Of a stretch of 31,455 nt of DNA, positions 3,516 to 29,398 are shown piece by piece. The notes under the pieces are model-generated. The model ran no database searches. It worked only from the letters and a program-made list of their open reading frames with translations, and was not told the origin of the DNA. Each line of letters opens with the position of its first letter. The first letter of the stretch is position 1. This stretch comes from a virus. The translations under genes and the position numbers were made by a program. The stretch covers positions 1-31,455 of the IMG/VR virus record IMGVR_UViG_3300020074_000077. One strand, written 5' to 3'.

Positions 3516-3907
3516 GACCACCGATCGACCCACTCACCGCCGCCGGCGCGATCTCGGGCGCTTTCCTGGCCGACTGCATAGAGAGCGCGGTGCGGTTTGA
3601 ATCGATGGCGTGCCGGCTATCGACCCTCACGGGCAACGACTGCCGAGGACCTCTACGCGAGCTCAGGCGCTGGATCTACGCTGAGGGGGCCCGACTCCCA
3701 TGCGGGAAAGGCGACCTCGATCTGATCCTGTCCAGGGCGGTGACCTGCGGCATCCGCGCGGCCGCTTTCGGTGACCCGAAACCGATGAGCACAATGCACT
3801 CCGTTGCCGCCGTGCTTCTCAACGCCGAGCGGCTCGAGGCCCTCGGCCTGTTCAAGTCGGCCTGCGCCCTGCGTAGCATGGCGCTTCCGGAGGACCCTGC
3901 GCGATGA
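3512..3907 (+). CDS. Hypothetical protein
   Basis: The GTG at 3512 has GGAG at 3501-3504 and gives 131 residues (MRPPIDPLTAAGAISGAFL). The open frame extends up to 3410, but that extension would overlap two upstream ORFs and looks non-native. The protein appears mostly helical, with scattered Cys (ADCIESA, MACRLS, NDCRG, VTCGIR, SACALR). No known domain is recognised. The stop forms an ATGA overlap with the DNA methylase start, so it probably shares its message. Confidence 0.55.
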   Translation: MRPPIDPLTAAGAISGAFLADCIESAVRFESMACRLSTLTGNDCRGPLRELRRWIYAEGARLPCGKGDLDLILSRAVTCGIRAAAFGDPKPMSTMHSVAAVLLNAERLEALGLFKSACALRSMALPEDPAR

Positions 3908-4959
3908 ACGGGCGCCCCACACTGCCCTTCTCCTGGGCCGGCGGCAAGCAGATGATGACCTTCCTGCTCCTGCCCCTGATACCGCCCCACGAGGAGTACG
4001 TCGAGCCCTTCTTCGGCTCGGGCGCCCTCTTCTTCCGCAAGGAGCCTTCCCGGCTGGAGACCCTCAACGACATCGACCGAGACATCGCCAACTTCTTCCG
4101 GGTCCTGCGGGATCGCCTGCCGGAGTTCCTGCTACTTGCGGAGCTCACCCTCGTGTCGCGCAGCCTCTATGAGGAGTGCCGCCGAGCCTACCGCCACGAG
4201 GACGACCCAGTTCGACGGGCCTGGATGTGGTGGGTCGTGGCCTCGCAGAGCACCTCCGGGACCTTCGGGCGCGGCTGGTCCCGGATGAAGCAGGCCGGCC
4301 GCGCTGGGCCACCGAGGCGGCTCGCCTCTCGCATTCGCTCCCTGGCGGCCGTCGCCGGCAGGCTCCAGGGAGCCCAGATCGAGGACAAGGACGCCCTGGA
4401 GTGCATGGGAGAGTTCTGCCGGCCAACGAGCTTCTGCTACGTGGACCCCCCTTACCTGCACTCCAGCCGGCGAGATACCAGGCTCTATGTGAGAGAGACG
4501 ACCCTCTTCGGGCATGATCGACTCGTGCGCGCCCTCCTCGAACTGCCGGGCCACTTCCTCGTGAGCGGAGTCGTTCACCCGATCTATGCTCCGCTCGAGG
4601 ACGCCGGCTGGACCAGGCTCGACTTCAGGCGGCCCGACTGCGCCACTCCCCGCGATCGCCATACAGCCCACCGGGATGACGGTGAGGATGGAGCAGGCTG
4701 GCGCAACGAGAGCCTATGGGTCCATCCGCGAACATGGGAACACGCCCGGGCAGGACCCCTTGCCGAACTGGTCGCCAAGTGCCAGCGGATGGGCCGCTCG
4801 CTCTCCTACATGACCGGACTGAGAGGTGACCACCATACCACGACGACGACCGACGCCCTTCGTCTACCGCTTGAAGGTGCCGGCGATGCTCCACTGCCTG
4901 GTGACCCTTCTCCCGGACAGCGCCCGGAACGCGCAGGAGGCCCAGGCCTTGATCCGTGA
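3904..4959 (+). CDS. DNA adenine methylase, D12/Dam class
   Basis: This 351-residue protein should transfer a methyl group from S-adenosylmethionine to N6 of adenine in DNA. The class motifs are in order: PFSWAGGK at residues 8-15 (motif X), YVEPFFGSGALFF from residue 32 (motif I, SAM binding), LNDIDRD just after it, and the catalytic DPPY at residues 181-184. Residues up to about 300 fit the family. The last 50 or so are low-complexity (a run of Thr, then Pro/Gly) and overlap the next ORF in another frame, so the natural end may be shorter. With the neighbouring genes at 5213 and 6657 it makes a probable modification module that protects phage DNA from restriction. Confidence 0.88.
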   Translation: MNGRPTLPFSWAGGKQMMTFLLLPLIPPHEEYVEPFFGSGALFFRKEPSRLETLNDIDRDIANFFRVLRDRLPEFLLLAELTLVSRSLYEECRRAYRHEDDPVRRAWMWWVVASQSTSGTFGRGWSRMKQAGRAGPPRRLASRIRSLAAVAGRLQGAQIEDKDALECMGEFCRPTSFCYVDPPYLHSSRRDTRLYVRETTLFGHDRLVRALLELPGHFLVSGVVHPIYAPLEDAGWTRLDFRRPDCATPRDRHTAHRDDGEDGAGWRNESLWVHPRTWEHARAGPLAELVAKCQRMGRSLSYMTGLRGDHHTTTTTDALRLPLEGAGDAPLPGDPSPGQRPERAGGPGLDP

Positions 4960-5107
4960 GCACCTCCGGGACGCCGACGACTTCCCCTGGGACGTCTACG
5001 ACTGGCAGAAAGACTACGATGCCCTGGAGGTCGAACTGGTCTCAGGGCCGACCAATCAGGAGTTGGGCTTGACACTCCCCCCGGAACCCGCTACGATTAC
5101 ACCGTAG
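4826..5107 (+). CDS. Hypothetical protein (alternative start at 4886)
   Basis: The GTG at 4826 gives 93 residues, but the ATG at 4886 has a better ribosome site (GAAGGTG, 4873-4879) and gives 73 residues beginning MLHCLVTLLPDSARNAQEAQ. The 5' part overlaps the low-complexity end of the adenine methylase gene. The protein looks like a small alpha/beta fold with an acidic middle (DADDFPWDVYDWQKDYDALE). No family is recognised. The promoter for the next unit lies within its last 40 codons or so. Confidence 0.5.
   Translation: MTTIPRRRPTPFVYRLKVPAMLHCLVTLLPDSARNAQEAQALIREHLRDADDFPWDVYDWQKDYDALEVELVSGPTNQELGLTLPPEPATITP
5069..5097 (+). promoter_or_regulatory. Sigma70-like promoter P1
   Basis: A perfect -35 box TTGACA (5069-5074) is followed after exactly 17 nt by TACGAT (5092-5097, four of six matches to TATAAT). 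Transcription would begin near 5104, about 11 nt before the tRNA-like element, and continue into the methylase/Mom-like gene at 5213. It lies inside the end of the preceding ORF. Confidence 0.55.
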
Positions 5108-5114
5108 AGGAAAA

Positions 5115-5186
5115 GCGAGCGAGCCAGCAGGCGCTCCCCCCGGCTCCAACCGGGGGGCCGGGTTCGAGACCACGGGGCTCGCTCCA
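5115..5186 (+). tRNA. tRNA-like element, possibly tRNA-Trp(CCA), atypical
   Basis: The only gene-free gap in the left 9.5 kb folds like a tRNA. GCGAGCC (5119-5125) pairs fully with GGCTCGC (5176-5182), which is followed by T and an encoded CCA (5184-5186). Alternatively GCGAGC (5115-5120) pairs with the same arm, leaving a D-like arm GAGC/GCTC (5121-5124/5133-5136) with GG in its loop. A T arm CCGGG-TTCGAGA-CC(A)CGG (5158-5175) has the canonical TTCGA loop and one bulged A. The middle hairpin (5136-5157) has eight G-C pairs and the loop CTCCAA, whose CCA would read Trp codons. Linker bases 8-9 and most of the variable loop are missing and the loop is six rather than seven bases, so it may be decayed or only tRNA-like. 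Confidence 0.45.
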
Positions 5187-5212
5187 ACAGCTTCCGGGCC
5201 GGGGGCGACCAG

Positions 5213-6670
5213 ATGCCGGTAGCCGGATCACCCAGCTACATCGCTCTGTTCCTGGGCGTCACTCCCAGGCCGTTCCGAGAGTACCTGGCCCCGCTGCTCA
5301 AGGCCGCCCGGGCGCGCTACACGCGCCTGCTGAACCCCTGCGTCGGGCGACTCACCATCCCGTGGCTTGCCGTCAAGCAAGGCTGGAACCCCTCCGCGAT
5401 CAGGGCCTCCGACATATCGCTCTTCTCCACCATCCTGGGGGAGTACGCGGCCGGCCGGGACCTGCGCGCCCTCAAGATCGAGCTCCACGACATGCCTGAG
5501 TTGGACTGCCTGGAGTCCTGCTGGGACGGCGGGATCAACCATGCCGCCGCGGCGCTTTACGCCTGCGCCTGGGCGGCGCGCAAGGACGCCGGCAGCTACT
5601 ACCATCGCCAGCTACTGCGCGACTTCGAGCTCCGGCGAGATGACTACCTGATGGAGTGGCGCCAGCGGATCGAAACCCTCGCGGGGGCCTGCCGGGGCAT
5701 GGAGTACGCCGTGTCGGACATCTGGGATGAGATACCCGGCCAGGCTGACGCGCAGACGCTGCTCTACACCGACCCACCGATCTACGGCGGCGGGTACGGC
5801 GTCATGTTCGACTACAAGGGCCGGGTCACATGGAACGACCCCCAGATCGCCGAGTTCCGGCCCGAGGACGTCGGCCGGCTCACCGACCGCATCATGGAGT
5901 TCCCCGGCCTGGCGATCGTGTTCACGAGTCGAGCAATCCCCGAGGCGGCGGCGGCCGGCGGGCTCTTCGCGTGCCAGATGGACCCGACCAGGGTTGACTA
6001 CCTATGGACGAACCGCCCCGAGGAAGCCAAGTCCCTGCACGCCATCGGCTGCCAGGCCATCGGACTCACCGAGATCAAGGCGGTGGCTGCACCGATCCTG
6101 ACCGACGAGGACCCGCTCACCAGGGGCAGCCGGGTGAGCTTCATCGCCGTGAGCCGCGAACAGGCGATGTACTACCGCGACCTCTGGGCCCACAACCTCG
6201 GCACCACCAGCGCCCAGGGATACGTCGCAGCCCTGGTCGATGGGAAGCTGTTCGCGATCGCCGGTCTCTACAGCACCTTCATGGGTCGTGGTGACATCGG
6301 CGGCATGGGGCCGGGGGAGTATCTCTGGCTTCAGTTCGCGATGAGCCCGCCCTCCCGCCGGCACCTCAACCGGCTGTTCATCCGCCTGATGGTGACCGAG
6401 GAGTTCTACTGGGTCGCGAACGCTGCGCTCAACCTGGGCATCTCGGGGCAGAAGGGCGTCGAGACAACCTGGTTCAGCCGCCACTCGAGTACGATGGTCT
6501 ACCGGGGCATCATGCGCGTTGAGAAACGCGAGGCGCAGCACGACGGGAGTTGGCGGATCATCTACCGCCAGGAATGGCAGCCCAAGACGCTGAAGGCGGC
6601 CTTTCGCGAGTGGCTCAGACTCGAGGATGCCCGCAGCCCTCAGGAGGCAGACGCCGATGCTACCGGGTAG
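5213..6670 (+). CDS. Divergent adenine methylase fused to Mom/GNAT-like domain
   Basis: This 485-residue protein appears to have two parts. Residues 1-290 resemble a degenerate D12-type methylase: LLNPCVG around residue 41 stands where the SAM loop should be, ASDIS follows like the acidic motif, and YTDPPIYGGGY carries DPPIY at 187-191 in place of DPPY. Residues 300-475 look like the acyltransferase-fold proteins related to phage Mu Mom: YYRDLWAHNLGTT, a strand pair around ALVDGKLFAIAGLYS, an Arg-rich helix (SRRHLNRLFIRLM) and the late VYRG (429-432) with a following strand pair. Mom modifies adenine beyond methylation, so this protein may make or complete a hypermodified base. Similar phage proteins are, from memory, labelled putative antirestriction adenine methyltransferases. 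It is followed by the ParB-like gene with a 14-nt overlap. Confidence 0.65.
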   Translation: MPVAGSPSYIALFLGVTPRPFREYLAPLLKAARARYTRLLNPCVGRLTIPWLAVKQGWNPSAIRASDISLFSTILGEYAAGRDLRALKIELHDMPELDCLESCWDGGINHAAAALYACAWAARKDAGSYYHRQLLRDFELRRDDYLMEWRQRIETLAGACRGMEYAVSDIWDEIPGQADAQTLLYTDPPIYGGGYGVMFDYKGRVTWNDPQIAEFRPEDVGRLTDRIMEFPGLAIVFTSRAIPEAAAAGGLFACQMDPTRVDYLWTNRPEEAKSLHAIGCQAIGLTEIKAVAAPILTDEDPLTRGSRVSFIAVSREQAMYYRDLWAHNLGTTSAQGYVAALVDGKLFAIAGLYSTFMGRGDIGGMGPGEYLWLQFAMSPPSRRHLNRLFIRLMVTEEFYWVANAALNLGISGQKGVETTWFSRHSSTMVYRGIMRVEKREAQHDGSWRIIYRQEWQPKTLKAAFREWLRLEDARSPQEADADATG

Positions 6671-7418
6671 GCTCATCGGCCAGATAGACGACGCCCTCCA
6701 GGTCTGGATGGTCCCGCTGACCGGCCTACGGGAGCAGGACATGAACGCCCGCGTCATGGCGCCGGAGATGCTCCAGCACCTGGCGGCGACCGTGGAGCGC
6801 GAGAAGCACCTGGAGGGGCTGCCTTACTGCGTCGCCCGGGATCGGGATGAGGGAGAAGGGGCCTTCGAGATCGTGAGCGGCCACCATCGCGCCCGGGCCG
6901 CTCGAATGGCGGGCCTTCAGGAGATCGCCATTCTCGCGGACATGCGGGAGCTGACCCCGGATCAGATCCGCGGCAAGCAACTCGCTCACAACGCCATCGA
7001 GGGCCAAGATGACCCCGACACGCTCCGGAGGATGTACCTGGGCATCGCCGACGTGAACGCTCGGCTGGAGACCTTCCTGGACCCCGCCAGGCTCAACATC
7101 CCCCTTCAGAAGGGTCAGATCGACGTGCGCGACCTGACTCTTGGGTTCCGCTGGCATACCGTCGCCCTGGTGTTCCTCCCACATCAGAAGCACGAATGGG
7201 ACCGCCTCGTCGATCGCATCCCGCACGAAGCCGAGCAGGTGGGCGTCGTGCCGGAGGAGGTGTTCGAGAGCTTCACGGCCGCGTGCAAGAGGCTCGGACG
7301 GCAGGAGGACATCCGCCATCTGGGCATGATGGTCTCCCGCATGGTCGAGATCGTGAACGCCCACCTGGACTCCGCTGCGGTGCCGGATGGTCCGCCGGAA
7401 GGGCCGCCAGATGGGTGA
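6657..7418 (+). CDS. ParB/Srx-fold protein
   Basis: This 253-residue protein begins at the ATG at 6657, behind AGGAGG (6642-6647). Residues 10-110 match the ParB/sulfiredoxin N-terminal domain: VPLTGLREQDMNARVM, a helix that counts alternatives, YCVARDRD, FEIVSGHHRARAARMAG with the conserved G-H-x-R box at residues 75-78, and a helix bearing AHNAIEGQDD. Such domains bind CTP or ATP, or act as nucleases, and in phages often sit next to DNA-modification genes or terminase. The C-terminal 140 residues are not recognised and lack an obvious ParB helix-turn-helix. I infer a DNA-directed partner of the Mom-like protein rather than a partition protein, because no ParA is present. Confidence 0.72.
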   Translation: MLPGRLIGQIDDALQVWMVPLTGLREQDMNARVMAPEMLQHLAATVEREKHLEGLPYCVARDRDEGEGAFEIVSGHHRARAARMAGLQEIAILADMRELTPDQIRGKQLAHNAIEGQDDPDTLRRMYLGIADVNARLETFLDPARLNIPLQKGQIDVRDLTLGFRWHTVALVFLPHQKHEWDRLVDRIPHEAEQVGVVPEEVFESFTAACKRLGRQEDIRHLGMMVSRMVEIVNAHLDSAAVPDGPPEGPPDG

Positions 7419-8226
7419 CGAAACGGACGCGACAGCAAGCCCCATCAGGCGCACCGACTGGCGCGCCGTTGCCCTCAAGTTTGAGCGATCCCCCGAAACG
7501 ATGACCCAACAGCAGTTCGCGGAGGCCGAAGGGTTGGTCTACGCGACGATGAAAGACCACGCTGCTCGGGAGGACTGGGAGGAGCGGCGCCGGGCGTTCC
7601 ACGACCAGGCAACGAGGGCAGCACGAGAAAGGCTCCAGCGAGAGCTCGCTCGCGAGGTGGTTGCCAAGCTCCGCGAGGACATCGACATTCTACAGCGAAC
7701 CAAGGCGGAACTGGTCGCTGCCATTCAGGGAGGGGAAGACGGTAGGGCGCCCCTCCGCGTCGTGAGCCTCGAAGGCGCAGCCCGGGCAGTCATTGAGATC
7801 ATCAAGGCCCAGCGGCTCATCATGGGCGAGGCCACGGAGCGCGCCGAGCTAACCGGCCCGGTAAGCGACGCGCTCGAAGACCTTCTGGAGCGCCAGGTCA
7901 GCGATGATGAACTCGCCAGCGTACTCAGCAACGCGGCGTTCCTACTTACACGAGGCGGCCAGGGGGCAAACGCGGCTCCTCCAGAGGGCCCCGAGCGATC
8001 CGGGCTGCTTCGCTCTCTCGATGCTAAGGACGGAGCGGAAGGAGCACCTGGACTTCGTGAGCCGCCCTTACCTGCTCCAGCCGCTCTACGACCCGACCCC
8101 GAACCAGACGGCGGTGGCCTGCGCGCAGAGCGGGAAGACGGTCACCTGGTTCGCGAAGACGGTCCAGAAGCTGGTGTTCCCCCTGCGGGGCAGACCCCGG
8201 ACCGCGATCTGGACGTTCCCCACTGA
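7411..8226 (+). CDS. terS: Terminase small subunit (probable)
   Basis: Starting at 7411 (an 8-nt overlap with the ParB-like gene) the product has 271 residues. Residues 12-55 fit an N-terminal helix-turn-helix (WRAVALKFERS, TQQQFAEAEGLVYATMKDHA), as used by small terminases to bind packaging sites. A long charged helix follows (ARERLQRELAREVVAKLRED), and then an oligomerisation-like helical region. The last 90 residues or so, rich in Gly, Pro and Glu, are read from DNA that also encodes the start of the large subunit, so they are probably an out-of-frame extension left by the lack of stops in GC-rich DNA. Adjacent position supports the call. Confidence 0.65.
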   Translation: MGDETDATASPIRRTDWRAVALKFERSPETMTQQQFAEAEGLVYATMKDHAAREDWEERRRAFHDQATRAARERLQRELAREVVAKLREDIDILQRTKAELVAAIQGGEDGRAPLRVVSLEGAARAVIEIIKAQRLIMGEATERAELTGPVSDALEDLLERQVSDDELASVLSNAAFLLTRGGQGANAAPPEGPERSGLLRSLDAKDGAEGAPGLREPPLPAPAALRPDPEPDGGGLRAEREDGHLVREDGPEAGVPPAGQTPDRDLDVPH

Positions 8227-9562
8227 CAGCGACGTGCGGGCCTTCAGCGCGGCCCGCGTCAAGACCATGCTCACTACGAGCCGGCACCTCCGCCGGCACA
8301 TGGGCGACCTCGACCAGGTGGGGGTCAAGCAGTTCCTCAACGGGAGCACGATCTACTTCCGGGGCACCAAGTCCGAAGTGGTGGCCCTGTCGATCCCCTG
8401 TGACTACTTGATCCACGACGAGCTCGACAGGTCCCAGCCGGATACGCTCCAACTCTACCAGGACCGGACGCGCAACAGCGACGACCGCAGGTGCTTCCTG
8501 TTCTCCACCCCCACCATCCCTGGGTATGGCGTCTCGGCCGCTTGGGAGACGACGAACCAGCACGAGTGGATCTGGAGTTGCGGGGCCTGCGGCCGGCGCC
8601 AGGTCTTCGCGCCGATGGACAAGAGCACCCCCTGGCAGCAGCATCTGGACCCCGACGAGGGCGTGTTCCGGTGCTGCTACTGCCAGGCCGAGGTGGAGCG
8701 CGAGTGGGTTCACAACGGGTACTGGGAGGCCCAGGAGCCCAGCAACTCGGACCATGCCGGCTATCATGTGACCGGCATCATGCCGCCCAACGCCGACGCG
8801 GCCACCCTCGCGAAGGAGTACCGCAAGGCCGAATTCCCCGAGCTCGTCGTGCAGGGGGGGATCGGGCTACCCGAGGTGTCGGGGGAGAACGAGCTCACGG
8901 CGGACATGATCGCCTTCGGCGCATGGCAGAGCACCCTGGTGTCCGATGGCACGCTCTACGCCGGCCTGGACCAGGGGAAGAAGCTGGACTTCATGGCCGG
9001 CGATGGCCAGGGCAAGCTGGTCTGCGTCGAGCGGTTCGACGACTGGAACCAAGTGGCCTCGGCGATGGAGACGCTCAAGATCATGCGGCTGGTCGCCGAC
9101 GCCCAGCCCGACGCCAGGCCGGTGCAGGACCTGGTGGCCAGGTTCCCCGGCCGGGTGGTCATGGCCGACTACTCCCTCACCACCCTGCCTGCGGAGGAGT
9201 GCTTCGAGCGCGTTCACGACGAGCCCCGCGTTCGCATCCACCGGACTGCCGGGCTCGACTGGACCAGAGACCGCATCATGCTCGGGAAGAGCGGCGGGGA
9301 TGTCTTCCCGACGCTCGGCTACGAGACCGAGCAGGTGCTCAAGGCTCACCTCACGGCCTCGAAGCGTGCGATGGAGAAGGACCAACACGGCAACCCGCGC
9401 GCCGTATGGAAAGAGACCGCGGCCGATCACCTGCGCCACGCCCACCTGTACTACTGCGTCGCGTGCAGGCTCGGGGAGGGCGTCCCCGCCTGGGAACGGC
9501 CGGACCTCTGGCAGCAGTGGGAGCAGTACGAGCAGCGGCGGCGTGAGGACGAGGGCGGTTGA
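7904..9562 (+). CDS. terL: Terminase large subunit, GpA-like
   Basis: This 552-residue protein is the packaging motor and headful/cos nuclease. Walker A is at 73-79 (CAQSGKT) and Walker B at 168-175 (YLIHDELD). A zinc knuckle pair lies at Cys226/229 and Cys257/260, followed by EREWVHNGYWE, which is the arrangement of the lambda GpA type. The nuclease half has acidic positions at D356 (AGLDQGKKLD), D422 (VMADYS) and D508 (AADHLRHAHLYY), consistent with an RNase H-like fold. The first Met pair at 7904 overlaps the small-subunit frame by 323 nt; a later ATG at 8021 starts just before conserved sequence but has no good ribosome site. The native N-terminus is therefore uncertain. Confidence 0.88.
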   Translation: MMNSPAYSATRRSYLHEAARGQTRLLQRAPSDPGCFALSMLRTERKEHLDFVSRPYLLQPLYDPTPNQTAVACAQSGKTVTWFAKTVQKLVFPLRGRPRTAIWTFPTDSDVRAFSAARVKTMLTTSRHLRRHMGDLDQVGVKQFLNGSTIYFRGTKSEVVALSIPCDYLIHDELDRSQPDTLQLYQDRTRNSDDRRCFLFSTPTIPGYGVSAAWETTNQHEWIWSCGACGRRQVFAPMDKSTPWQQHLDPDEGVFRCCYCQAEVEREWVHNGYWEAQEPSNSDHAGYHVTGIMPPNADAATLAKEYRKAEFPELVVQGGIGLPEVSGENELTADMIAFGAWQSTLVSDGTLYAGLDQGKKLDFMAGDGQGKLVCVERFDDWNQVASAMETLKIMRLVADAQPDARPVQDLVARFPGRVVMADYSLTTLPAEECFERVHDEPRVRIHRTAGLDWTRDRIMLGKSGGDVFPTLGYETEQVLKAHLTASKRAMEKDQHGNPRAVWKETAADHLRHAHLYYCVACRLGEGVPAWERPDLWQQWEQYEQRRREDEGG

Positions 9563-10001: not shown

Positions 10002-11810
10002 ATGCGGAAGAAAAGAGCGCGTCAGCCCACACTCGGAAGCCGCCTTGGCGCAGCCTGGCAGGCTTTGCGCGGACAGCAACCCCACAACCAAGGGCGCGAC
10101 TGGTGGAATGCGCCTGCGGAGAACAACGACAGCTCAACCCCCGACAGCGGCGTGCTCGGGCTCAGGTCGGAAGCCACCGGCGATGGCCGGCTCGCAGCAC
10201 TCTCCTTCCTCGAGTGGGTGGCGGAGGTCTACTCGCCGGCGACCATCTGCATCGCGAAGCGGCAAGAGCAACTCTCCTCGCTCCGCTTCAGCTTCAAGGC
10301 CAAGGACCCTGACAAGGCCGAAGCACCCGAGATCGAGGCGCAGATAGCACGAGCTAAGGAGTACGTGACCCGCCGCGGCGGCCTGGGCGGTCCGGGTGTC
10401 CCCTGGCGCGAGTTCCTGCTGGAAGCCATCTGGGACGCCCTGGCGATCGACGCGCTGCCGATCTGGGTGGAGCGGGATGGCGCCGGCAACATCACAGGTC
10501 ACCGAATGCTCTCCGGGCTGGGGGTCATCCCGAAGCGAGACGCCAACGGATGGGTGCCACGGCCGCCCGAGATCGCCTTCGAGCAGTGGATCAACGGCCG
10601 GCGCGTCCAGGTCAACGGTCGCCCGGGCTATACGGCCGAGGAGCTCTACTACTTCAGGATGCGACCCCGGAAGAAGACCGTCTGGGGGTTCCCGGCCTGC
10701 GAGGCTCTGGTCAGCCAGGTCATGGCCTGGCTCTTCTCCGAAGACTGGAACCTGAGCTTCTTCACCGAAGGCGACACAACCGAGGGCACCTGGCGCACCC
10801 CCGACTCCTGGACCGTGGACCAGATCATCAAGTTCACGCAGTTTGTCAACACGAGGCCCAAGCTGGACCCGAAGGCCAGACACAAGTCATCCTGGACTCC
10901 GGCGGGGCCCCAGTTCGAGCCGACGCGCCGGCGCGACGACATGGAATGGGACGACCTGCAGATGCGGGCCATCCACCTGACGGCCGCGCTCTTCGGGTTC
11001 AACGCCACGACCATCGGGTTCGCCGGCCAGGTCTACAAGGAGAGCCAGGAGGACCAGATCAAGGCTGCGACCCGATGGGGCCTGGTCCCGACCATGCTCT
11101 TCATCAAGGACTTCATCGACCTGTGTCTCGAGGACATCGGCTGCGGAGAGATCGAGCAGGACTGGCTTCCTGAGGAGGAGGACCGGCTCAAGCTCTCTCA
11201 GTTGATCCGCAATGCCGGGCCGAACGTGCTGACTACGAACCAGGCCCGCGCTCTGCTCGGCCAGGACGAGGTGGACTCCCGGCTGGGGAACTGCCTCTAC
11301 ATGGTCACGGCCACCGGCTTACTGGTCACCTACGATCCGGCGGCCGCCGATCCCGAGGCAGCCTACAAGATCACCTTCAGCGAGAAACCCCTGCCCGCTG
11401 CTGAGGCGAGCGAGGAGGGGATGACCGACCCGGAGGACGCGCCCGAGCAGGAGGACATCGAGACACCCGCCGATGCTTCTGAGCGAGCGGGCGCCGACGA
11501 GCCGCTCGATGCGGCAGCCCAGGCCGACCTGGAGCTCTGGGAGAGGAAGGCGCTCCGGCGTCTTCGCCAGGGCAAGGGGCTCGGCACGTTCGCGAGCCAA
11601 GCCATCCCTGGCGCCACTCAGAGCGCGATCAGGCGATCTCTCAGGGCAGCGACGACGCCCGACGACGTGCGGCGCGCCTTCCGGGGCGCCCAGGAATGGC
11701 GATCGCGCGGAGAGAGCGCCCTGAACCAACTGACGGACATGGCCGAAATGGTGCTTTGCCAGGCGGGGCGCCACGAGACGTTCCTCGGCGGCAACGGTCA
11801 GGAGGACTGA
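10002..11810 (+). CDS. Portal protein
   Basis: This 602-residue protein should form the dodecameric portal ring at one capsid vertex. The start at 10002 (MRKKRARQPTLGSRL) is chosen because everything upstream is low-quality frame. Portal-like features are a helical N-terminus, a core with LWSFEDW-type motifs (AWLFSEDWNLSFFTEG), a central wing with WDDLQMRAIHLTAALFGFN, and the clip/stem region after YKESQEDQIKAATRWGLVP. The C-terminus adds an acidic, Pro/Ala-rich linker and a helical domain (LELWERKALRRLRQGKGLG, then DDVRRAF), common in HK97/SPP1-type portals. Residues 261-278 have a near-identical copy in the gene at 810. Position directly after terminase and before the capsid genes supports the call. 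Confidence 0.82.
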   Translation: MRKKRARQPTLGSRLGAAWQALRGQQPHNQGRDWWNAPAENNDSSTPDSGVLGLRSEATGDGRLAALSFLEWVAEVYSPATICIAKRQEQLSSLRFSFKAKDPDKAEAPEIEAQIARAKEYVTRRGGLGGPGVPWREFLLEAIWDALAIDALPIWVERDGAGNITGHRMLSGLGVIPKRDANGWVPRPPEIAFEQWINGRRVQVNGRPGYTAEELYYFRMRPRKKTVWGFPACEALVSQVMAWLFSEDWNLSFFTEGDTTEGTWRTPDSWTVDQIIKFTQFVNTRPKLDPKARHKSSWTPAGPQFEPTRRRDDMEWDDLQMRAIHLTAALFGFNATTIGFAGQVYKESQEDQIKAATRWGLVPTMLFIKDFIDLCLEDIGCGEIEQDWLPEEEDRLKLSQLIRNAGPNVLTTNQARALLGQDEVDSRLGNCLYMVTATGLLVTYDPAAADPEAAYKITFSEKPLPAAEASEEGMTDPEDAPEQEDIETPADASERAGADEPLDAAAQADLELWERKALRRLRQGKGLGTFASQAIPGATQSAIRRSLRAATTPDDVRRAFRGAQEWRSRGESALNQLTDMAEMVLCQAGRHETFLGGNGQED

Positions 11811-11812
11811 CC

Positions 11813-13660
11813 ATGTGGAGCTCGATGCAGGATGTTCCGGCCAACGTGAGGCTGCGCAGGGGAGCCCCTCTCTCCCTGGACGGGGCCCAGTTCTGGCAGG
11901 CTCATTTCAACCTGCTGCTGGGTACGGGGACCCCGGAGACGGCGGCCTCCGATGCCGCATGGAGCGCCTTCGAGCAGCAGTACCGGCTCTCCAACGGCTC
12001 CTGGGTGAACGCCTCGGAAGCCCCGCTCCTCGAGGTGAACATGGGCCGCGTGGGCTACGTGCAGGCAATCCTGGACCAGGGCTACCCCCGGTTGGAGATG
12101 CTCTGCGGGAGCGCCACGCTCGACGCCTACGGGACCTACGTGTCTCCCGAGATCATCCCGCTCTTCAGGGCACAGGCAGCCATCGGCGAACGCGCCCAGA
12201 CCTTCACCGAGGCCGCCTCCCTCGGCTGCACCATGCTCCGGCTGACGCACGACAGGACGCACCCGTTCCCGATCGGATGGGCGACGGCAACCATCCCCGC
12301 GGACCAGTGGGACCTCTACTCCTGGAGCGAGATCCGCGAGAAGGTCCAGGTCTCGCGACCCGAGCACGCCCTGGTCTATCGGCATCGGCTCCGGGAGGAC
12401 CATCCCTACTTCCAGGCCCTGGTGAGCGACGTAACGGCCGGCCGGCCCCTGGCCGCCAGCCTGGGGATGCTCCACGTGTACCGCCGCCGCATCCGCAGCG
12501 ACCTGGCCCAACGGGATGTCTGCGCTCTCGTCGGGCCGAACGCGCGCGCCGATCATGTGGCGCTCATCTTTGAGATGATGGGCGCGAACCCGGATGCCAA
12601 CTTCGGACTCCTGGGTATCGCCCTACAGAGCCTCTTCGACGGCGTGGACCCACTGCAGGCCCGGCGTTCACGTTTCCGCATCTCGCTGAGGAGGGGTGAC
12701 CCCTCTCAGCCCCCCACGGAGGGTACACCCATGCCGAGCACCGATCGCAGCGTCCCCCTGCAGCCCTATGCGGAGTCCGGCGACCTCACGGGCGCCGAGT
12801 TGTTCTCCGACCTGCTCAAGCGCAGGATGCCCATGCGCACGTTCGACAGTCTCATCGAGACCCTGGCCGAGGCGCTCCAGTCCGCAGCCTGGCGCCACCG
12901 AGAGACCGGCGAAGCCGGGTTGGAGGCCGAGATGGCCGCCATCCTGGAAGCCTTCGGTGAAGCGGTGGCCCAGGAAGTGCTGGACGGCTCGGAACTGCGG
13001 TCAGATGCCGCCTGGTCCGCCTTCTTCGGACGGGCCGAGACCCCCAGCACCGGAGGTGCAACCATGAGCCGTGTGACCGAGTTCTTGGCTGGCCTGTCCG
13101 ACGAGGAGAGGGCCGAGCTTCGCGCCAACATGGGCGAGCCCGCCCCTCCTCCGGCTACCCAGCCCCCATCATCGGAAGAGCCGAATCCGGCAACGTCGCC
13201 AACGACACCCAACCCCGAGCCAGCGCCACCGGCTGAGCCGCCCGCCCCGGCCGCGGCCGAGCCCGCTCCGGCCCCGGCTCCGGCTCCAGGTGACACAGGC
13301 AGCGAGGAGGCGCTCCAGGCCGTCACCGACCTGGTCCGCCGCGACCTTCAGGCCCTCAGGGCCGAGATCGCCGAGGTCGTCGGCCCCCTGGCCGCGGATC
13401 TGCAGGAGGTCCGAGCGCATCTGGGTCTGGACCCCGCGGGTTCGGACGCACCGGCGGCTCCGGCGCCCGCCCCCTCCGGCGTGGTGACCAGCGAGACCCG
13501 CACGCTTCCGACCCCTCCGGCCATCGAGCCCCAGGTGCCGCCCTCGCTCGAGGAGATCGAGGCCAAGGAGGGGAACCGGGCCGCCCGTGAGGCCGGGCGC
13601 GCGAGGGCGCGCGAGGTCGTAATGAACCGCCTCGGCCTTCCGCCGCAGCCGCAGACGTAG
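11813..13660 (+). CDS. Capsid maturation protease/scaffold candidate
   Basis: This 615-residue protein lies between portal and major capsid, where a maturation protease and scaffold are usually encoded. It starts behind GGAGG, three nt after the portal stop. Residues 1-290 are a folded alpha/beta region of unrecognised family, and no catalytic triad could be assigned with certainty. Residues 307-420 look helical (TFDSLIETLAEALQSAAW). Residues 440-500 form a long Pro/Ala/Glu-rich linker, and the end is a coiled-coil-like helix (LVRRDLQALRAEIAEVVGPL) with a basic C-terminus, typical of scaffolds. Two in-frame ATGs inside the gene have excellent ribosome sites, so shorter scaffold-only products are likely, as for lambda C/Nu3. 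Confidence 0.6.
   Translation: MWSSMQDVPANVRLRRGAPLSLDGAQFWQAHFNLLLGTGTPETAASDAAWSAFEQQYRLSNGSWVNASEAPLLEVNMGRVGYVQAILDQGYPRLEMLCGSATLDAYGTYVSPEIIPLFRAQAAIGERAQTFTEAASLGCTMLRLTHDRTHPFPIGWATATIPADQWDLYSWSEIREKVQVSRPEHALVYRHRLREDHPYFQALVSDVTAGRPLAASLGMLHVYRRRIRSDLAQRDVCALVGPNARADHVALIFEMMGANPDANFGLLGIALQSLFDGVDPLQARRSRFRISLRRGDPSQPPTEGTPMPSTDRSVPLQPYAESGDLTGAELFSDLLKRRMPMRTFDSLIETLAEALQSAAWRHRETGEAGLEAEMAAILEAFGEAVAQEVLDGSELRSDAAWSAFFGRAETPSTGGATMSRVTEFLAGLSDEERAELRANMGEPAPPPATQPPSSEEPNPATSPTTPNPEPAPPAEPPAPAAAEPAPAPAPAPGDTGSEEALQAVTDLVRRDLQALRAEIAEVVGPLAADLQEVRAHLGLDPAGSDAPAAPAPAPSGVVTSETRTLPTPPAIEPQVPPSLEEIEAKEGNRAAREAGRARAREVVMNRLGLPPQPQT
12731..13660 (+). CDS. Nested in-frame product: probable scaffold, long form
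   Basis: The internal ATG at 12731 is preceded by GGAGGGT (12718-12724) with a 6-nt gap, as good as any gene start in the window. It would give 309 residues (MPSTDRSVPLQPYAESG) that contain only the helical, Pro/Ala-rich and coiled-coil parts of the parent protein. This matches the known arrangement in which a scaffold is made from an internal start within the protease gene. Expression is inferred from the site alone. Confidence 0.45.
   Translation: MPSTDRSVPLQPYAESGDLTGAELFSDLLKRRMPMRTFDSLIETLAEALQSAAWRHRETGEAGLEAEMAAILEAFGEAVAQEVLDGSELRSDAAWSAFFGRAETPSTGGATMSRVTEFLAGLSDEERAELRANMGEPAPPPATQPPSSEEPNPATSPTTPNPEPAPPAEPPAPAAAEPAPAPAPAPGDTGSEEALQAVTDLVRRDLQALRAEIAEVVGPLAADLQEVRAHLGLDPAGSDAPAAPAPAPSGVVTSETRTLPTPPAIEPQVPPSLEEIEAKEGNRAAREAGRARAREVVMNRLGLPPQPQT
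13064..13660 (+). CDS. Nested in-frame product: probable scaffold, short form
   Basis: A second internal ATG at 13064 has GGAGGTG (13052-13058) five nt upstream. The 198-residue product (MSRVTEFLAGLSDEERAEL) starts with a short helix, then the Pro/Ala linker and the C-terminal coiled coil. It would be a minimal scaffold with the capsid-binding end. It is less certain than the start at 12731, because GGAGGT can also arise from Gly codons. Confidence 0.33.
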   Translation: MSRVTEFLAGLSDEERAELRANMGEPAPPPATQPPSSEEPNPATSPTTPNPEPAPPAEPPAPAAAEPAPAPAPAPGDTGSEEALQAVTDLVRRDLQALRAEIAEVVGPLAADLQEVRAHLGLDPAGSDAPAAPAPAPSGVVTSETRTLPTPPAIEPQVPPSLEEIEAKEGNRAAREAGRARAREVVMNRLGLPPQPQT

Positions 13661-14820: not shown

Positions 14821-16293
14821 ATGAGCTATACCCACGAGATCACAGATGCGATGGTGGCGCGAGCCAGGCGGTCGGGTCCCGTCTGGCGCGGCTTCCCGAG
14901 CGGGGCCGGCGGCCGCGTCGAGCCCCTGGCGGCGATCAAGGAGTTGCAGGCCGCGGTCAGTCCGATGGAGGCGTCGATCGAGGACTTCGCGGAGTTGCTC
15001 GCCCAGATGTCCGCGATTCAGGGTCCGATCTCCCTCTTCGTCTCCGGCAACCTGGGGCACGACGCTGGCGTGAGCAGCGACGGCGTGCTGTTCGGCAAGC
15101 TGACGGCGGCCAACCCGACCAAGTTCTTCCTCCAGACCCACGGCCTGGCGCCGTTGGCCTGCGCGGACGACGGTGGGGCCTACACCTGGGAGACGACGGC
15201 CGCCGGCAACGCCACCGCCAACGACATGACCCTCCTGCCCACCGTGCCGGCCGAGGATGACGCCTACTACTGGTCATCCCCGGACGGGACGAAGAAGCCC
15301 ACGGCGCTGTGGCTCCTCATCGGAACCCAGGGGGTGGGGACGTGGACGATCACCTGGGAGTACAGCAAGGGCAATGGGGTCTGGGGCGCGCTCCAGAACG
15401 TCACGGACGGCACCACCGGGTTCACGGCGACCACGGGCTGGAAGAAGGTCAGCTTCGATCTGCCCGGCGACATCGCGCTCGACACGGTGGACGGCCAGAG
15501 CGGCTACTGGATCAGGGCCCGCGTGTCGGCCTACACCGCCGTGACGACCCCGCCGCTCGGCAGCCGCAGCTACGTTGTGGTGGCTTCCGCCGATGCCGGA
15601 TGGACGGACGACACGACCGACTTCACCGATGCCGACGCCGGCGACGTGGCCCTCCTGCCGGCCTACACAGGCATTCTGGTGCCCAACGATGCCTGCTACA
15701 TCGTGGACACCGCCAAGTTCTGCAAGGTGAAGCTCACGGTCTCGCAGGCGCTGCAGGGCACCATCACCATCACGCCCGAGTACAGCAAGGCCGGGAACAC
15801 CTGGGGCGCGTTGACCCTGAAGGACAACTCCTCCGGGTTCACGGCGGGGGCGAGCACCTACATGATGAGCTTCGACCCGCCGGCCGACTGGGCCACAACG
15901 ACCATCAACGGCCAGGCCGGGTACGCCATCCGGTGGCGTGTATCCGCCGTCACGGTCTACACGACCCAGCCGCTGGCGACGCAGGGCTGGATCTACCGGC
16001 TGACGGCCGGCGAGGGTCTGCGCCTGCGCTACGGTGGCGTGATCGACCGGGTCCAGATGACCGCCCAGACCGCCAGCGGAGTGGCCGGCGACAGCGTGTT
16101 CCTGCTGCTCAACCGGACCAAGGGGACCGCCGCGAGCTTCACCTGGACCGGCGGAGACACCCGCGACGAGGTGGACGACCTGGGGCTGGAGGTCGAGGCG
16201 GATGACGAGATCGTGCTCGTGCAGGTCGCGGAGGATGGCACGACCGAGTTCGCGTCGGCCACCTTCCTCTTCGACGAGGTTGCGGCCGCCTGA
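14821..16293 (+). CDS. Capsid decoration/head-fibre candidate with duplicated domain
   Basis: This 490-residue protein follows the capsid gene behind GAAAGGAACGG. Residues 1-85 form a mixed N-terminal region (a helix EDFAELLAQMSAIQG). Two beta-rich repeats with a period of exactly 140 residues then follow: EYSKGNGVWGAL at 180 and EYSKAGNTWGAL at 320, each continuing with a GFTA strand, a GQSGYWIRARVSAYT or GQAGYAIRWRVSAVT strand, and a TTPPL/TTQPL turn. The C-terminal 100 residues are another beta domain (ASFTWTGGDTRDEV). Duplicated immunoglobulin-like or lectin-like domains right after the capsid gene suggest a particle-surface decoration or head-fibre protein that could bind polysaccharide. 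The family is not recognised. Confidence 0.6.
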   Translation: MSYTHEITDAMVARARRSGPVWRGFPSGAGGRVEPLAAIKELQAAVSPMEASIEDFAELLAQMSAIQGPISLFVSGNLGHDAGVSSDGVLFGKLTAANPTKFFLQTHGLAPLACADDGGAYTWETTAAGNATANDMTLLPTVPAEDDAYYWSSPDGTKKPTALWLLIGTQGVGTWTITWEYSKGNGVWGALQNVTDGTTGFTATTGWKKVSFDLPGDIALDTVDGQSGYWIRARVSAYTAVTTPPLGSRSYVVVASADAGWTDDTTDFTDADAGDVALLPAYTGILVPNDACYIVDTAKFCKVKLTVSQALQGTITITPEYSKAGNTWGALTLKDNSSGFTAGASTYMMSFDPPADWATTTINGQAGYAIRWRVSAVTVYTTQPLATQGWIYRLTAGEGLRLRYGGVIDRVQMTAQTASGVAGDSVFLLLNRTKGTAASFTWTGGDTRDEVDDLGLEVEADDEIVLVQVAEDGTTEFASATFLFDEVAAA

Positions 16294-16315
16294 GCGCCGC
16301 GACGCAGGGCCCGTG

Positions 16316-16350
16316 AAGGGGGCCGGTTGGCTTAGGCCGCCGGCCCTCTT
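16316..16350 (+). terminator. Hairpin after the decoration-protein gene
   Basis: AAGGGGGCCGG (16316-16326) pairs with CCGGCCCTCTT (16340-16350) over eleven positions with one G-U. An inner GGC/GCC pairing closes on the loop TTAG. No T-run follows. It may reduce read-through or set the 3' end of the capsid/decoration message. Confidence 0.42.
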
Positions 16351-16370
16351 CGGGTTCAGAGGTGAACGAG

Positions 16371-16997
16371 ATGATCCTGGCCGCGAACGACCTCACCGCA
16401 TACCTGGACGCCGCGGGCATCGAGGGGTACGACGGTTGGGACGCCACCGAACAGCACGACGCGCTCCTGATGGCCGAGGAGTGGGTCACGGCCAAGACCG
16501 ATCGGGAGTTCGAGGTCCAGGCAGAGCTCGAACGGTACTTCAACGGCAACGGGCTGCAAGAGATCGAGATACCGGATGCCCTGGCGATCAACGAGGTGAA
16601 ACTCAACGGGTCGGCAATCACCGCCTACCAGGCGCTTCCGCTCAACGGAAGCCCCAAGGAGCGTCTGCGCAAGAACAGCGGGGTCTGGGTGCGGCCGACG
16701 ACGACCCTTGGCAACCTGGTGGTCAAGGGGACCTGGGGACACGCGGCACAGGTTCCGCAGCGCATCAAGGACGCGATCTGCCTGGTGGCGACGACCAGGG
16801 GAATCGGCAGTGGGTTGGTGCCGAACCCCACGGAACAGCAGATCAAGAGCGCCAGCGCCTTCAGCCTGTCCTACACGCTGGCCACCGAGAAGGACCAGGG
16901 CGCCGCGGCCGATCTCATCTACCGCGAGGCCGAGCGCCTCCTTCAGGGCTACATCGACTTCACCGGACGACGAACCAGAGCACTCACGGGGACCTGA
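16371..16997 (+). CDS. Head-tail adaptor protein, gp6/gp15-like
   Basis: The ATG at 16371 has AGAGGTGA just upstream and gives 208 residues; a GTG nine nt earlier is less likely. Early helices (LTAYLDAAGIEGYD, HDALLMAEEWVTAKTDREF) are followed by a strand pair (EIEIPDALAINEVKLNGS, LVVKGTWGHAAQVPQRIKDA) and C-terminal helices. This is the usual layout of the adaptor ring that docks under the portal (HK97 gp6, SPP1 gp15 class). Position after the capsid genes supports it. The stop shares one base with the next start. Confidence 0.68.
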   Translation: MILAANDLTAYLDAAGIEGYDGWDATEQHDALLMAEEWVTAKTDREFEVQAELERYFNGNGLQEIEIPDALAINEVKLNGSAITAYQALPLNGSPKERLRKNSGVWVRPTTTLGNLVVKGTWGHAAQVPQRIKDAICLVATTRGIGSGLVPNPTEQQIKSASAFSLSYTLATEKDQGAAADLIYREAERLLQGYIDFTGRRTRALTGT

Positions 16998-18385
16998 TGA
17001 GCGCCTGCCCCTGCGGATGCCATAACGTCATCGACCACAGCGCGCGACGCCTGCACGAGCTCAGGTCTCGCGTGCTCGCAGCTTCCTGGGTCCAGGCAGG
17101 GGCCGAAGCCGTCCCCGAGATCACCGATGAGTGGGTGCTGCAGAACCTGCCGGACGTGCGCGCGACCGCCGTCATGGCCTCAATGGTCACCCACACGCTC
17201 TCCTACGGCAGCACGCTCGACGAGTGCCTCCGGCTCCTGGACCAGGGGCGGCTGAGCCTCGAGGAATGGAAGCTCCTGGAGAGCCGGTGCCTGGCGATCT
17301 GGGACGAGGGGCTCGACAAGGTGGCGCCGGCCAACCGGCCTCGACTCCAGCCGGCCTGGGAGCAGATCCGCGCGCTCATGGCGCGCGTTGCCCAGGGCGG
17401 CGTCAACCCGATCGCGGCCTCGGACTGGCTGCTGCGAGACTACCTGCCGATGTACCGCAGCTACGAGTTCCTGCGGCTCATCCGCACGGAGGCCGCCTAC
17501 GCGGACAACGTGGCGCGCAACACCGTCTTCCGGGAGACCCTGGGGGCCAACTCAGAGGCGATGGATGCGGTGGCTGACGCCCAGGGGCTCACCTTCCGGG
17601 GCCCCCCGGTGCATCCGAACTGCCTGTGCGGGACCGACTGCGTGCTGGGCACGGACGGCCGCTACCACCTGTTCCTCAACCCGGCGCCGAGCGCGTGTTG
17701 GCTCTGCCAGCAGGTGGCCGATCTGATGCTGGACGCCATCCCGCTCGTTCGGCCGGCCGGCGCTTCACCGATCGCGCCAGGGGGCACGACGACAGTGCCA
17801 GAACCGGCCACCGAGCCCAAACCCGCCCCTGCCGCTCATCCAAGCCCCCTCCCCGCGCGGCCAGCCTGGGACGAGGCATCCGCCAAGGCATGGAATGACA
17901 GTCTCACCCAGGATGAGGACAACGCCTTCCAGGCATGGCTTGGGAGCTACTACCGGAACATCAGGGCCTATCAAGCGACCGGAGATCCCGGGAGTGGCGG
18001 CCAGTTCGCGATTGACTACAGCGACAGCATCGAGGGCGCACTGGCCCGGGCTCCACAGTTTCAGGGTACCGTGTACCGCGGGCTTGCCGATCTCTCTGAC
18101 GAGCAGATGACTGCTCTTGAGGCCGGCGAACTCACATGCAACGCGGTGACCTCGGCCTCTACCAGCCGAGACACGGCCCTTCGCTTCACCTCGGGCAGAA
18201 ACATGGCCCTCCTCACAATCCGCTGTCGAACTGCAGCCGACATCACCGCGCGCTCGACCGAGGGTGAGGTTGTCCTCCTGCGGGGAACGCGCCTGAGGCT
18301 GGTATCATCGGAGCGAGTCGCAGCCTACGATGACGACGGCGGGCCAGGGCAATGCCTACTGCTCGAATACGAGGAGCTTGACTGA
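16997..18385 (+). CDS. MuF head-morphogenesis protein fused to ADP-ribosyltransferase
   Basis: This 462-residue protein has two modules. Residues 1-215 fit the Mu gpF/SPP1 gp7 family: a Cys-rich N-terminus (CPCGCH), helices, IRTEAAYADNVARN around 162 and the end motif PPVHPNCLCG (203-212). After a Pro-rich linker (about residues 245-290), residues 295-462 match R-S-E class ADP-ribosyltransferases: VYRGL with Arg361, the STS motif at 388-390 (SASTSR), and the catalytic E-G-E at 422-424, followed by VVLLRGTRLRLVS. All three catalytic elements look intact. MuF proteins are minor head proteins, and toxin-tailed MuF proteins are known from temperate phages, so it may be packaged in the head and delivered with DNA. 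The target is unknown. Confidence 0.82.
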   Translation: MSACPCGCHNVIDHSARRLHELRSRVLAASWVQAGAEAVPEITDEWVLQNLPDVRATAVMASMVTHTLSYGSTLDECLRLLDQGRLSLEEWKLLESRCLAIWDEGLDKVAPANRPRLQPAWEQIRALMARVAQGGVNPIAASDWLLRDYLPMYRSYEFLRLIRTEAAYADNVARNTVFRETLGANSEAMDAVADAQGLTFRGPPVHPNCLCGTDCVLGTDGRYHLFLNPAPSACWLCQQVADLMLDAIPLVRPAGASPIAPGGTTTVPEPATEPKPAPAAHPSPLPARPAWDEASAKAWNDSLTQDEDNAFQAWLGSYYRNIRAYQATGDPGSGGQFAIDYSDSIEGALARAPQFQGTVYRGLADLSDEQMTALEAGELTCNAVTSASTSRDTALRFTSGRNMALLTIRCRTAADITARSTEGEVVLLRGTRLRLVSSERVAAYDDDGGPGQCLLLEYEELD

Positions 18386-24693: not shown

Positions 24694-26166
24694 GTGGAAT
24701 GGACGCCCTGGCGCGGGCTTCAGTCCTCTGGACAGATCGACGACGACCAACTCCCGGCGACGCTGTTTCAGCTTCGCCGGTTCCTGCTTCTGCGCGCGGA
24801 TCTAACGAGCCATCCCGGGCCGATCGGCTACCTGAATTGGGATGGCGAGATGACCTGGGACATCCGCGACGACGCCTCCAACAAGGTCTTCGAGCAGACC
24901 ACATGGTTCAGCCTCACCCTGGTGTACCAGAAGACGGGCGACGTGCTCGCCTTCTTCGCCTGGTGGTGGGAGTATCCCGCGCACCGCATCCAGACCACCA
25001 TCCCTCAGCCCTGCTACATGGCAACCGGCTTCCAGGCCGGCCTTCCGCAAGTGCTCATGGCCCGGATCGGCATCGGGGCCAACGGCCTCGCCAGCTTCCA
25101 GCGCGAGGCAAGCTCCCCATTCCCGACCGCCTGCGGCCTACTCCCGGTGGGTACGATCGGTGGCGCCGCGATCAACGCCACCGCCACCATGTCGATGGCG
25201 AGAGGCCAGGAGCCGGCCTCCGGCAGTCTCCCGGCCGGCGCCACCACGCTGGAGAACATCGACGGCGCCAGCAATGCCTACCTGGGATGCCTCGGCGCGT
25301 CGGTGGCGGGTGGAACCCCAGGGGACGCCTTTCACGTCGCGAGCCGAGGGTGGGTCTACTCACCCTCGGAACAGGGCCTCGCGGACCCCAGCAGCTACCC
25401 GCCCGGCCACACCCAGTTCGAGGATCTGCCTGGGCAATCCGGGTACACCGATCACGAAGTCATCGTGGGCCTCTACTACTACGCGCCCGGCTACGCCGTC
25501 GATCTGACGCCGGGATCGAAGGTCTCGATCACCAAGAACGAGATCAGTGGCGACGCCTTCTGGCCTCTGGACCTGGCCAGCGTGTCCATCCGCACCGCCG
25601 GCGAAAGTGGCTTCGGCTCCATGATCGACACCCCTGGCTTCCACCGCCTGGCGATCGGCAGCGCGACGACAGCGGAGCAACTCGTCAGCGCCGATGGAGG
25701 ACTCAGCTACTACGGCCGGCGGATCGGCGACGGTATGCGCCGGCTCCAGATCGCGAAGACTCCCCAGAACCATCTGGTGGTCGGCGGGTACGCCGGCCAG
25801 CACTACCGGCTCCTGCTCAGCAAGAACGACGGCCGCACATGGGGCACACTCCAGTCACTGGGGGAGGCTCCGGTGCCTGACGACATCTGGCCCGCGGCGA
25901 CCTACGCGGACCCGGACTTCGCGATCACGAGACAGGGGCGGGTGGTGAGTATCGCCCGCGCCGGCGCCGCGCTCTCCTGCAAGACGAGCGCCGATGGCTT
26001 CTCGCGCAGCCACCGGATCGGCCAGGTCGCCCGGAACACCTGGCGCATCGCCTACGACGACGAGCGCGACCGCCTGCTCGTGACGGACGGGAAGACCGGG
26101 GTCTACCTGTCCAAGAACGCCGGGATGACGTGGGAACAAGTGCCGGCGGAAGGGCTGTCGCCATAA
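24694..26166 (+). CDS. Asp-box (BNR-like) tail protein
   Basis: The GTG at 24694 follows a GGGGA site and gives 490 residues. Residues 1-320 are aromatic and beta-rich, without a recognised family (FFAWWWEYPAHRIQTT, VIVGLYYYAPGYAVDL). Residues 325-490 carry Asp-box-like motifs at regular spacing: SADGGLSY at 332, SKNDGRTW at 376, SADGFSRS at 432 and SKNAGMTW at 473. The two SKN..G.TW copies fit the S-x-[DN]-x-G-x-T-W pattern of sialidase-type propellers. Such folds bind or cut glycans, so a receptor-binding or tail-tip role is likely. Only four motifs are seen and no sialidase active-site Arg set is evident, so enzyme activity is not claimed. Confidence 0.62.
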   Translation: MEWTPWRGLQSSGQIDDDQLPATLFQLRRFLLLRADLTSHPGPIGYLNWDGEMTWDIRDDASNKVFEQTTWFSLTLVYQKTGDVLAFFAWWWEYPAHRIQTTIPQPCYMATGFQAGLPQVLMARIGIGANGLASFQREASSPFPTACGLLPVGTIGGAAINATATMSMARGQEPASGSLPAGATTLENIDGASNAYLGCLGASVAGGTPGDAFHVASRGWVYSPSEQGLADPSSYPPGHTQFEDLPGQSGYTDHEVIVGLYYYAPGYAVDLTPGSKVSITKNEISGDAFWPLDLASVSIRTAGESGFGSMIDTPGFHRLAIGSATTAEQLVSADGGLSYYGRRIGDGMRRLQIAKTPQNHLVVGGYAGQHYRLLLSKNDGRTWGTLQSLGEAPVPDDIWPAATYADPDFAITRQGRVVSIARAGAALSCKTSADGFSRSHRIGQVARNTWRIAYDDERDRLLVTDGKTGVYLSKNAGMTWEQVPAEGLSP

Positions 26167-26168
26167 AC

Positions 26169-26201
26169 GGGGTGTGTAGGGGCGCACAGGGGCGACAGGG
26201 G
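26169..26201 (+). promoter_or_regulatory. G-quadruplex motif after the Asp-box gene
   Basis: Four GGGG runs at 26169-26172, 26179-26182, 26189-26192 and 26198-26201 are separated by loops of 6, 6 and 5 nt. This meets the usual four-run rule on the coding strand, two nt after the stop codon, so the RNA could also fold. A stop or stability role at the message end is possible. Confidence 0.55.
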
Positions 26202-26220
26202 CACCCCGCACCCTCCTAAC

Positions 26221-26249: not shown

Positions 26250-26337
26250 GCACCACAGAAGGGGCGTAGCGGGGCGTATGGGCACCATAGCGGCGAATCC
26301 AGGCCTTTCGGGGGGTGCGGGACAGGTGCCGGAAGCG

Positions 26338-29397: not shown

Positions 29398-29398
29398 C

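Follow-up and report, generated by a model that had tools for sequence, protein, structure and literature searches.

The question raised by this locus is what a pair of overlapping genes, situated directly upstream of the terminase genes of a phage, contributes to the virus that carries them. The locus lies in the viral record IMGVR_UViG_3300020074_000077, the whole 31,455 bases of which are referred to here as the window. The first gene (5213–6670, + strand) encodes a 485-residue protein, hereafter the fusion, which forms the core of the locus and joins a Dam-like domain (residues ~11–274) to a GNAT domain (residues ~306–470), and the second (6627–7418, + strand) encodes a ParB-fold protein. 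A first-pass annotation made from the sequence alone had combined these two genes with an adjacent D12 adenine methylase gene (3904–4959, + strand) into a possible three-gene DNA hypermodification module. Our results instead define the fusion and its ParB-fold partner as an essentially obligate two-gene module, and, judging from fold, pairing and genomic context, we consider the chances roughly even that this module modifies bases of phage DNA.

With respect to the fusion itself, residues 13–274 match PF22555 (DAM-like-phage1) at 141.1 bits and residues 306–470 match PF22559 (GNAT-phage-like) at 72.4 bits, the cut-off being 27 in each case, and phrog_7858, a family labeled 'unknown function', spans the protein end to end. 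An AlphaFold2 model of the whole fusion, built from 48 family sequences, reached a predicted local distance difference test score (pLDDT) of 87.9, and a model of the GNAT domain only reached 89.0. Residues 11–271 of the full model fit best on E. coli Dam (2ore; Z 14.5, 4.5 Å, 202 aligned residues), and the next ranks are held mostly by other Dam enzymes (EcoDam complexes, DpnM and T4 Dam), with Erm methyltransferases lower, near Z 12. For the GNAT model, the solved chains among the matches listed have the GNAT fold throughout (Z 8.8 to 10.1). The structural comparison that the first-pass annotation had proposed therefore finds both a Dam fold (Z 14.5) and a GNAT fold (Z ~10) in one chain, with neither lost. 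In sequence comparisons, PF02086, the D12 methyltransferase family, did not match the fusion at E 0.1, a phmmer search of PDB sequences gave a chance flavodoxin match alone, half-by-half profiles gave nothing usable, and NCBIfam holds no model for the protein. Compared as a whole, the fusion is structurally closest to a 695-residue protein of Siphoviridae sp. ct4Uy2 (BFVD A0A8S5SJK3), which is labeled 'Amidoligase enzyme' and may carry an additional domain.

The pairing of the fusion with the ParB-fold protein was examined in 100 loci, assembled from searches of IMG/VR and bacterial genomes that were seeded with ParB or with the fusion, to which the window and two isolated phages were added. 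The two genes adjoin in 99 of these loci, a figure that, like the other pairing figures here, counts sequences and not independent events, and in the hundredth (L018) the ParB gene starts 36 bases from the contig end. As the ParB query had been derived from three ParB proteins already known beside fusions, converse searches were run with the GNAT half alone and with the Dam-like half alone. These recovered fusion and ParB together in 85 of the 90 loci checked, the remaining five ending at or near contig ends, and across the same 90 loci the half-domain searches yielded no solo GNAT or solo Dam-like relatives except at contig ends. Collapsing near-identical loci leaves 65 non-redundant ones. 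The window fusion used as a single-protein query of IMG/VR returned no match; small-alignment queries did find relatives.

The same pair is present in phages of actinobacterial hosts. A tblastn search with the window ParB led to genes 26/27 of Gordonia phage Soos and genes 68/69 of Mycobacterium phage Jeon, in which the first gene, annotated as hypothetical, scores 316 and 177 bits (Soos) or 288 and 194 bits (Jeon) against PF22555 and PF22559, respectively, and the annotated ends of the two genes overlap by four bases. Because both the pairing and individual residues are conserved across loci that include Soos and Jeon, a chance arrangement of open reading frames (ORFs) can be ruled out. Some variation in layout was also recorded. 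In one locus the module is present as a tandem duplicate (fusion, ParB, fusion, ParB; L035:2669-6888), the second fusion being 387 residues long and without a PF22559 match, which indicates a truncated or diverged GNAT half. Elsewhere the fusion is apparently split into ORFs of 371 and 107 codons in overlapping frames (L044:4506-5905), through a frameshift, a sequencing error or a genuine split of the gene, and two loci (L083:2295-5479 and L084:3041-6663) have a rare gap of ~1 to 1.4 kb between fusion and ParB.

The third gene of the originally proposed module does not share this pattern. The 351-residue product of 3904–4959 is, as the first-pass annotation had stated, a normal D12 adenine methyltransferase, scoring 47.4 bits against PF02086 (cut-off 22) and carrying the catalytic motifs WAGGK, EPFFGSG, NDID and DPPY. 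Among 46 related viral records, nevertheless, just one has a D12 enzyme above the cut-off, a count that, like those given below for neighboring genes, is a lower bound as virus records may be fragments. The three-gene unit was rejected on this ground: co-occurrence across phages, which had been suggested as a check, holds for the fusion with ParB and fails for the D12 gene, which is a local extra and not a member of the conserved module.

The residues conserved in the fusion bear on what its Dam-like half may still do. Across 48 aligned members, G45, D67, Y321, H327, G351 and G432 are invariant, and D169 is present in 43. From motif order and established knowledge of Dam, as opposed to superposition, G45 and D67 would occupy the motif I and motif II positions that bind S-adenosylmethionine (SAM). 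Dam contacts the adenine of SAM through an Asp, and D169 would, by the same reasoning, match that residue. Motif IV is far less uniform. The window has DPPIY (residues 187–191; 5771–5785, + strand), one of four DPPxx sequences among the 48, whereas most relatives (26) have NPPTY, five have APPTY or APPSY, and Soos and Jeon have FPPF. The putative ligand-pocket residues are thus more constant than the catalytic ones, given that G45 and D67 are invariant and motif IV is variable. In one homologue, an intein-like insertion of ~300 residues, with a weak LAGLIDADG match under the cut-off, falls exactly at motif IV (NPPAY; L060:3556-5928); insertions of this kind favor functional sites.

In the close pairs examined, nonsynonymous divergence (dN) is well below synonymous divergence (dS) in both domains of the fusion, and this extends to Streptomyces members with APPTY. 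Both domains are under purifying selection, and the Dam-like half is therefore retained even where methyl transfer is unlikely. These results bear on the simplest account of the protein, namely that it is an ordinary N6-adenine methyltransferase to which a GNAT of minor importance has been appended. Although its closest solved fold is that of E. coli Dam and the window copy keeps the Asp of DPPIY, such an enzyme is hard to reconcile with the absent PF02086 match, an altered and variable motif IV, the lost GxG of motif I and a GNAT domain that is as strongly constrained as the Dam-like domain, and we regard this account as the most improbable of those considered.

The GNAT half had been described as Mom-like. 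Solved phage Mu Mom (8bv8) ranks third for the GNAT model (Z 9.7, 4.1 Å, 146 residues), in a tie with unrelated GNATs (9 to 10), and matches at E < 0.001 in a viral-model library include Mom from Lactobacillus phage LP65 and from Salmonella phage FSL SP-031. Together with a profile–profile match to Mom that we judged weak (E 1.4e-4, probability 53%) and with the Mom–ParB pairs of some phages, this rank could suggest an enzyme of Mom type, producing the Mom base (N6-carbamoylmethyl-adenine) and targeted by its fused Dam-like domain. The Mom family profile PF25680, however, matched neither the window protein at E 0.1 nor its relatives at E 1 (Mu Mom itself scores 253 bits), and a comparison of 14 Mom proteins with 47 fusion GNAT domains found the Mom invariants HY, E-L-x-R, S-x-x-D and G-x-x-Y-x-A-x-N missing from the latter. 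The profile score is itself partly doubtful, because the ELNRM of Mom, where strand 4 is expected, aligns with a helical 'LNRL' segment of the fusion model. Simple membership of the Mom family was rejected on the family profile and the invariant residues; the likeness of the GNAT half to Mu Mom is confined to the fold, and we consider production of the Mom base by this protein very improbable. Of the originally proposed methylase–Mom fusion, then, a Dam fold and a GNAT in one chain stand, with the likeness to Mom reduced to one of fold. True Mom genes do lie beside, or one gene from, ParB-like genes in Microbacterium phage Appa (L137:3469-4621) and Arthrobacter phage Martha (L147), which suggests that ParB–Mom pairing occurs in actinophages.

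The ParB-fold partner, which the first-pass annotation had recognized as a ParB/Srx protein, proved to be the constant companion of the fusion. It matches phrog_7405 (ParB-like) at 154 bits, falls below the cut-off for ParB_N (23.2 versus 26.3 bits), and the profile of its family finds solved ParB structures at E 4e-6. Conserved stretches among 65 sequences include E-Q-D-x-N-A (residues 36–41) and the P-motif (Box II), SGHHR (84–88), with Arg88, at the place of the essential Arg of that motif, invariant. We place its start more likely at the ATG at 6657 than at 6627, because an AGGAGG lies at 6642–6647; either start overlaps the fusion stop codon (6668–6670), and that at 6657 is 14 bases inside the fusion end. 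The nucleotide specificity of the ParB-CTPase fold is not reliably predictable from sequence (PMC12704722). Fusions of this fold to DNA methyltransferases recur among phages, and a domain of this fold that is joined to an acetyltransferase binds GTP (PMC12704722).

In terms of genomic context, the usual gene order is DUF488, fusion, ParB, terminase small subunit (TerS) and terminase large subunit (TerL). A DUF488-like gene (PF22751/PF04343; cluster c1, for example L063:3896-4366) is the commonest upstream neighbor, found within 4 kb of the module in at least 36 of the 65 non-redundant loci, and archaea have fusions of DUF488 with a ParB fold that binds CTP (PMC12704722). In phage ValentiniPuff, the genome of which is reported to be circularly permuted (PMC7302621), the gene order opens with the fusion and closes with DUF488. 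At least 7 of 47 module-carrying records encode an S-adenosylmethionine synthetase (MetK), as in L002:2969-4147, L066:1581-2732 and five others; where the locus includes this gene, it lies a few genes upstream. Neither DUF488 nor MetK was detectable in the window.

Downstream, the order fusion, ParB, TerS, TerL is found in most of the 65 loci and is common to phages Brigit and ValentiniPuff and to the window, where TerS is encoded at 7387–8226 (+ strand; phrog_6299, neighborhood clusters c2/c6) and TerL at 7904–9562 (+ strand; phrog_675 at 194 bits, PF05876). This arrangement is what would be expected of a packaging accessory, in which the fusion and ParB would mark or bind the pac/cos region and pass DNA to the adjacent terminase. 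In Jeon, however, the terminase is at 0.3–2 kb and the module at 51–53 kb of a 60.9-kb genome, a separation of ~50 kb along the map, or ~8 kb if the genome is circular, and in Soos the module is several genes away from TerS. As these two pairs sit apart from the terminase, the module is independent of terminase adjacency, and a dedicated role in packaging appears rather unlikely.

Phages that carry the module infect Clostridia, Streptomyces, Microbacterium, Gordonia, Mycobacterium and other hosts, and isolated carriers have been propagated on Mycobacterium smegmatis mc2 155, Gordonia rubripertincta and Microbacterium paraoxydans. A sample of ~1,180 bacterial genomes, centered on hosts already known as carriers, contributed one further carrier only. 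The module is a rare phage-borne trait.

Taken together, the evidence that we count toward modification of DNA consists of the pairing, the Dam and GNAT folds, the putative SAM-pocket residues, dN far below dS, the MetK and DUF488 neighbors, and the Mom–ParB neighbors in Appa and Martha, to which the published links of ParB-fold domains with methyltransferases and an acetyltransferase (PMC12704722) and with CmoX (PMC12783734) add indirect support. Several observations weigh on the other side. Motif I reads P-C-x-G-x-F, with the first Gly of F-x-G-x-G kept and the second absent, and the lysine of AGGK is not evident. The first residue of motif IV varies among N, D, A, S, T and F across the family, and the motif departs from the (D/N/S)PP(Y/F/W) of amino-methyltransferases, the aromatic residue lying one place later. 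In the GNAT half, sequence and secondary structure place K-x-x-R-x-(G/N/T)-R-L where the pyrophosphate loop R/Q-x-x-G-x-G/A would bind acyl-CoA, and this degeneracy makes the use of acyl-CoA uncertain. Y321 and H327, invariant in the 48 members, are missing in Soos and Jeon, where the conserved GNAT positions kept are R322, the K/R-L pair at 387–388, T418 and the K-x-x-R-G block at 428–432. The usual position beside the terminase is also compatible with a role in packaging, and the GNAT fold serves equally on proteins and small molecules.

This last point admits a different account, in which the Dam-like half would have lost catalysis and would read DNA or a base so as to recruit the GNAT half to DNA; the substrate acylated there would be a protein, be it host RNA polymerase, a nucleoid or terminase protein or ParB itself, and the DNA would stay unmodified. 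Modification of host proteins by phage GNATs has precedent (PMC7824862), and a sizeable minority of members have A, S, T or F at the start of motif IV, yet purifying selection on the domain persists. The invariance of G45 and D67, however, exceeds the needs of a pure reader, and the ParB pairing and MetK neighbors point to SAM and DNA chemistry. We view such a reader as unlikely, though not negligibly so.

If the fusion and ParB do modify phage DNA, the Dam-like half would bind duplex DNA and flip a base, probably adenine, with SAM or a related ligand held in the pocket that it retains. Onto the amine thus exposed, the GNAT half might then transfer a group of acyl type or one otherwise taken from a donor, and GNATs able to transfer methylcarbamoyl groups have been described (PMC8072286). 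The ParB-like nucleoside triphosphatase (NTPase), as a nucleotide-dependent clamp or loader, would load or gate the complex on phage DNA, perhaps around the time of packaging late in infection, which would make the packaged DNA resistant to host restriction. DUF488 and the SAM synthetase would have accessory roles. The product is probably not plain 6-methyladenine, nor is it demonstrably the Mom base. The first-pass proposal of two steps on adenine beginning with methylation keeps its basis in the two domains of one chain, and its methylation step is weakened by a variable motif IV unlike that of amino-methyltransferases. A more specific possibility, which we advance only tentatively, is a new class of hypermodification enzyme carried by phages of several bacterial phyla. 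Here a Dam-derived fold without methyl transfer would flip the base and possibly supply a SAM-derived ligand, a fused GNAT with a non-standard donor site would build an undescribed amine adduct, and an obligate ParB-fold NTPase would load or switch the complex.

Beyond the terminase subunits, the window holds a structural region with genes for a portal protein, a major head protein and a tape measure protein. Large ORFs in this region (11696–13660, 14821–18385 and 24694–30370) have no PHROG match at E 0.001, and the terminase shares at most ~25% identity with the best-ranked isolated phages.

Among known systems, the module works most like a phage DNA-modification cassette, yet it is a member of neither the Mom nor the canonical D12 group. 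With D12/Dam enzymes (E. coli Dam, T4 Dam and DpnM; PF02086) it has in common the fold over residues 11–271 (Z 12 to 14.5) and the order of motif I, the motif II Asp and a DPP-like motif, and it differs in its shifted and variable motif IV, lost GxG, lack of an evident AGGK, absent PF02086 match and fused GNAT. Phage Mu Mom (PF25680) shares the GNAT fold, the phage DNA context and, in some cases, nearby ParB-like genes, but it stands alone, with other invariant residues and without a Dam-like domain. Fusions of ParB to methyltransferases or acetyltransferases, often in phages or prophages, likewise couple the ParB fold to such domains (PMC12704722), whereas ParB is here a separate, overlapping gene whose partner carries both. 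The phage CmoX/CmoA hypermodification system also begins with a methyltransferase-like enzyme, the DNA carboxymethyltransferase CmoX, which frequently has ParB-domain genes as neighbors (PMC12783734). It differs in acting on C5 of cytosine with carboxy-SAM and an AMP-forming ligase, and in having no GNAT; a preliminary search by its authors found no adenine counterpart (PMC12783734).

As to novelty, the fusion and ParB belong to PF22555 plus PF22559, PHROG 7858 and PHROG 7405 by curated score or full-length match, so the domains and genes were already cataloged, in entries without an assigned function. A search of the open literature (Pfam names, DUF488 contexts, Dam/GNAT fusions) found no description of a function or system. 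What is added here is the ParB pairing, the DUF488/MetK context and the decay of the motifs, and the first-pass term 'undescribed system' is apt for the function but not for the families. A pair so tightly linked across phages of Faecalibacterium, Streptomyces and Mycobacterium must be useful to them, even though its genes are annotated as hypothetical. If the module modifies DNA, it would add new chemistry to the anti-restriction repertoire of phages and would provide a test case for the ParB-fold NTPases that recur beside phage DNA-modifying enzymes.

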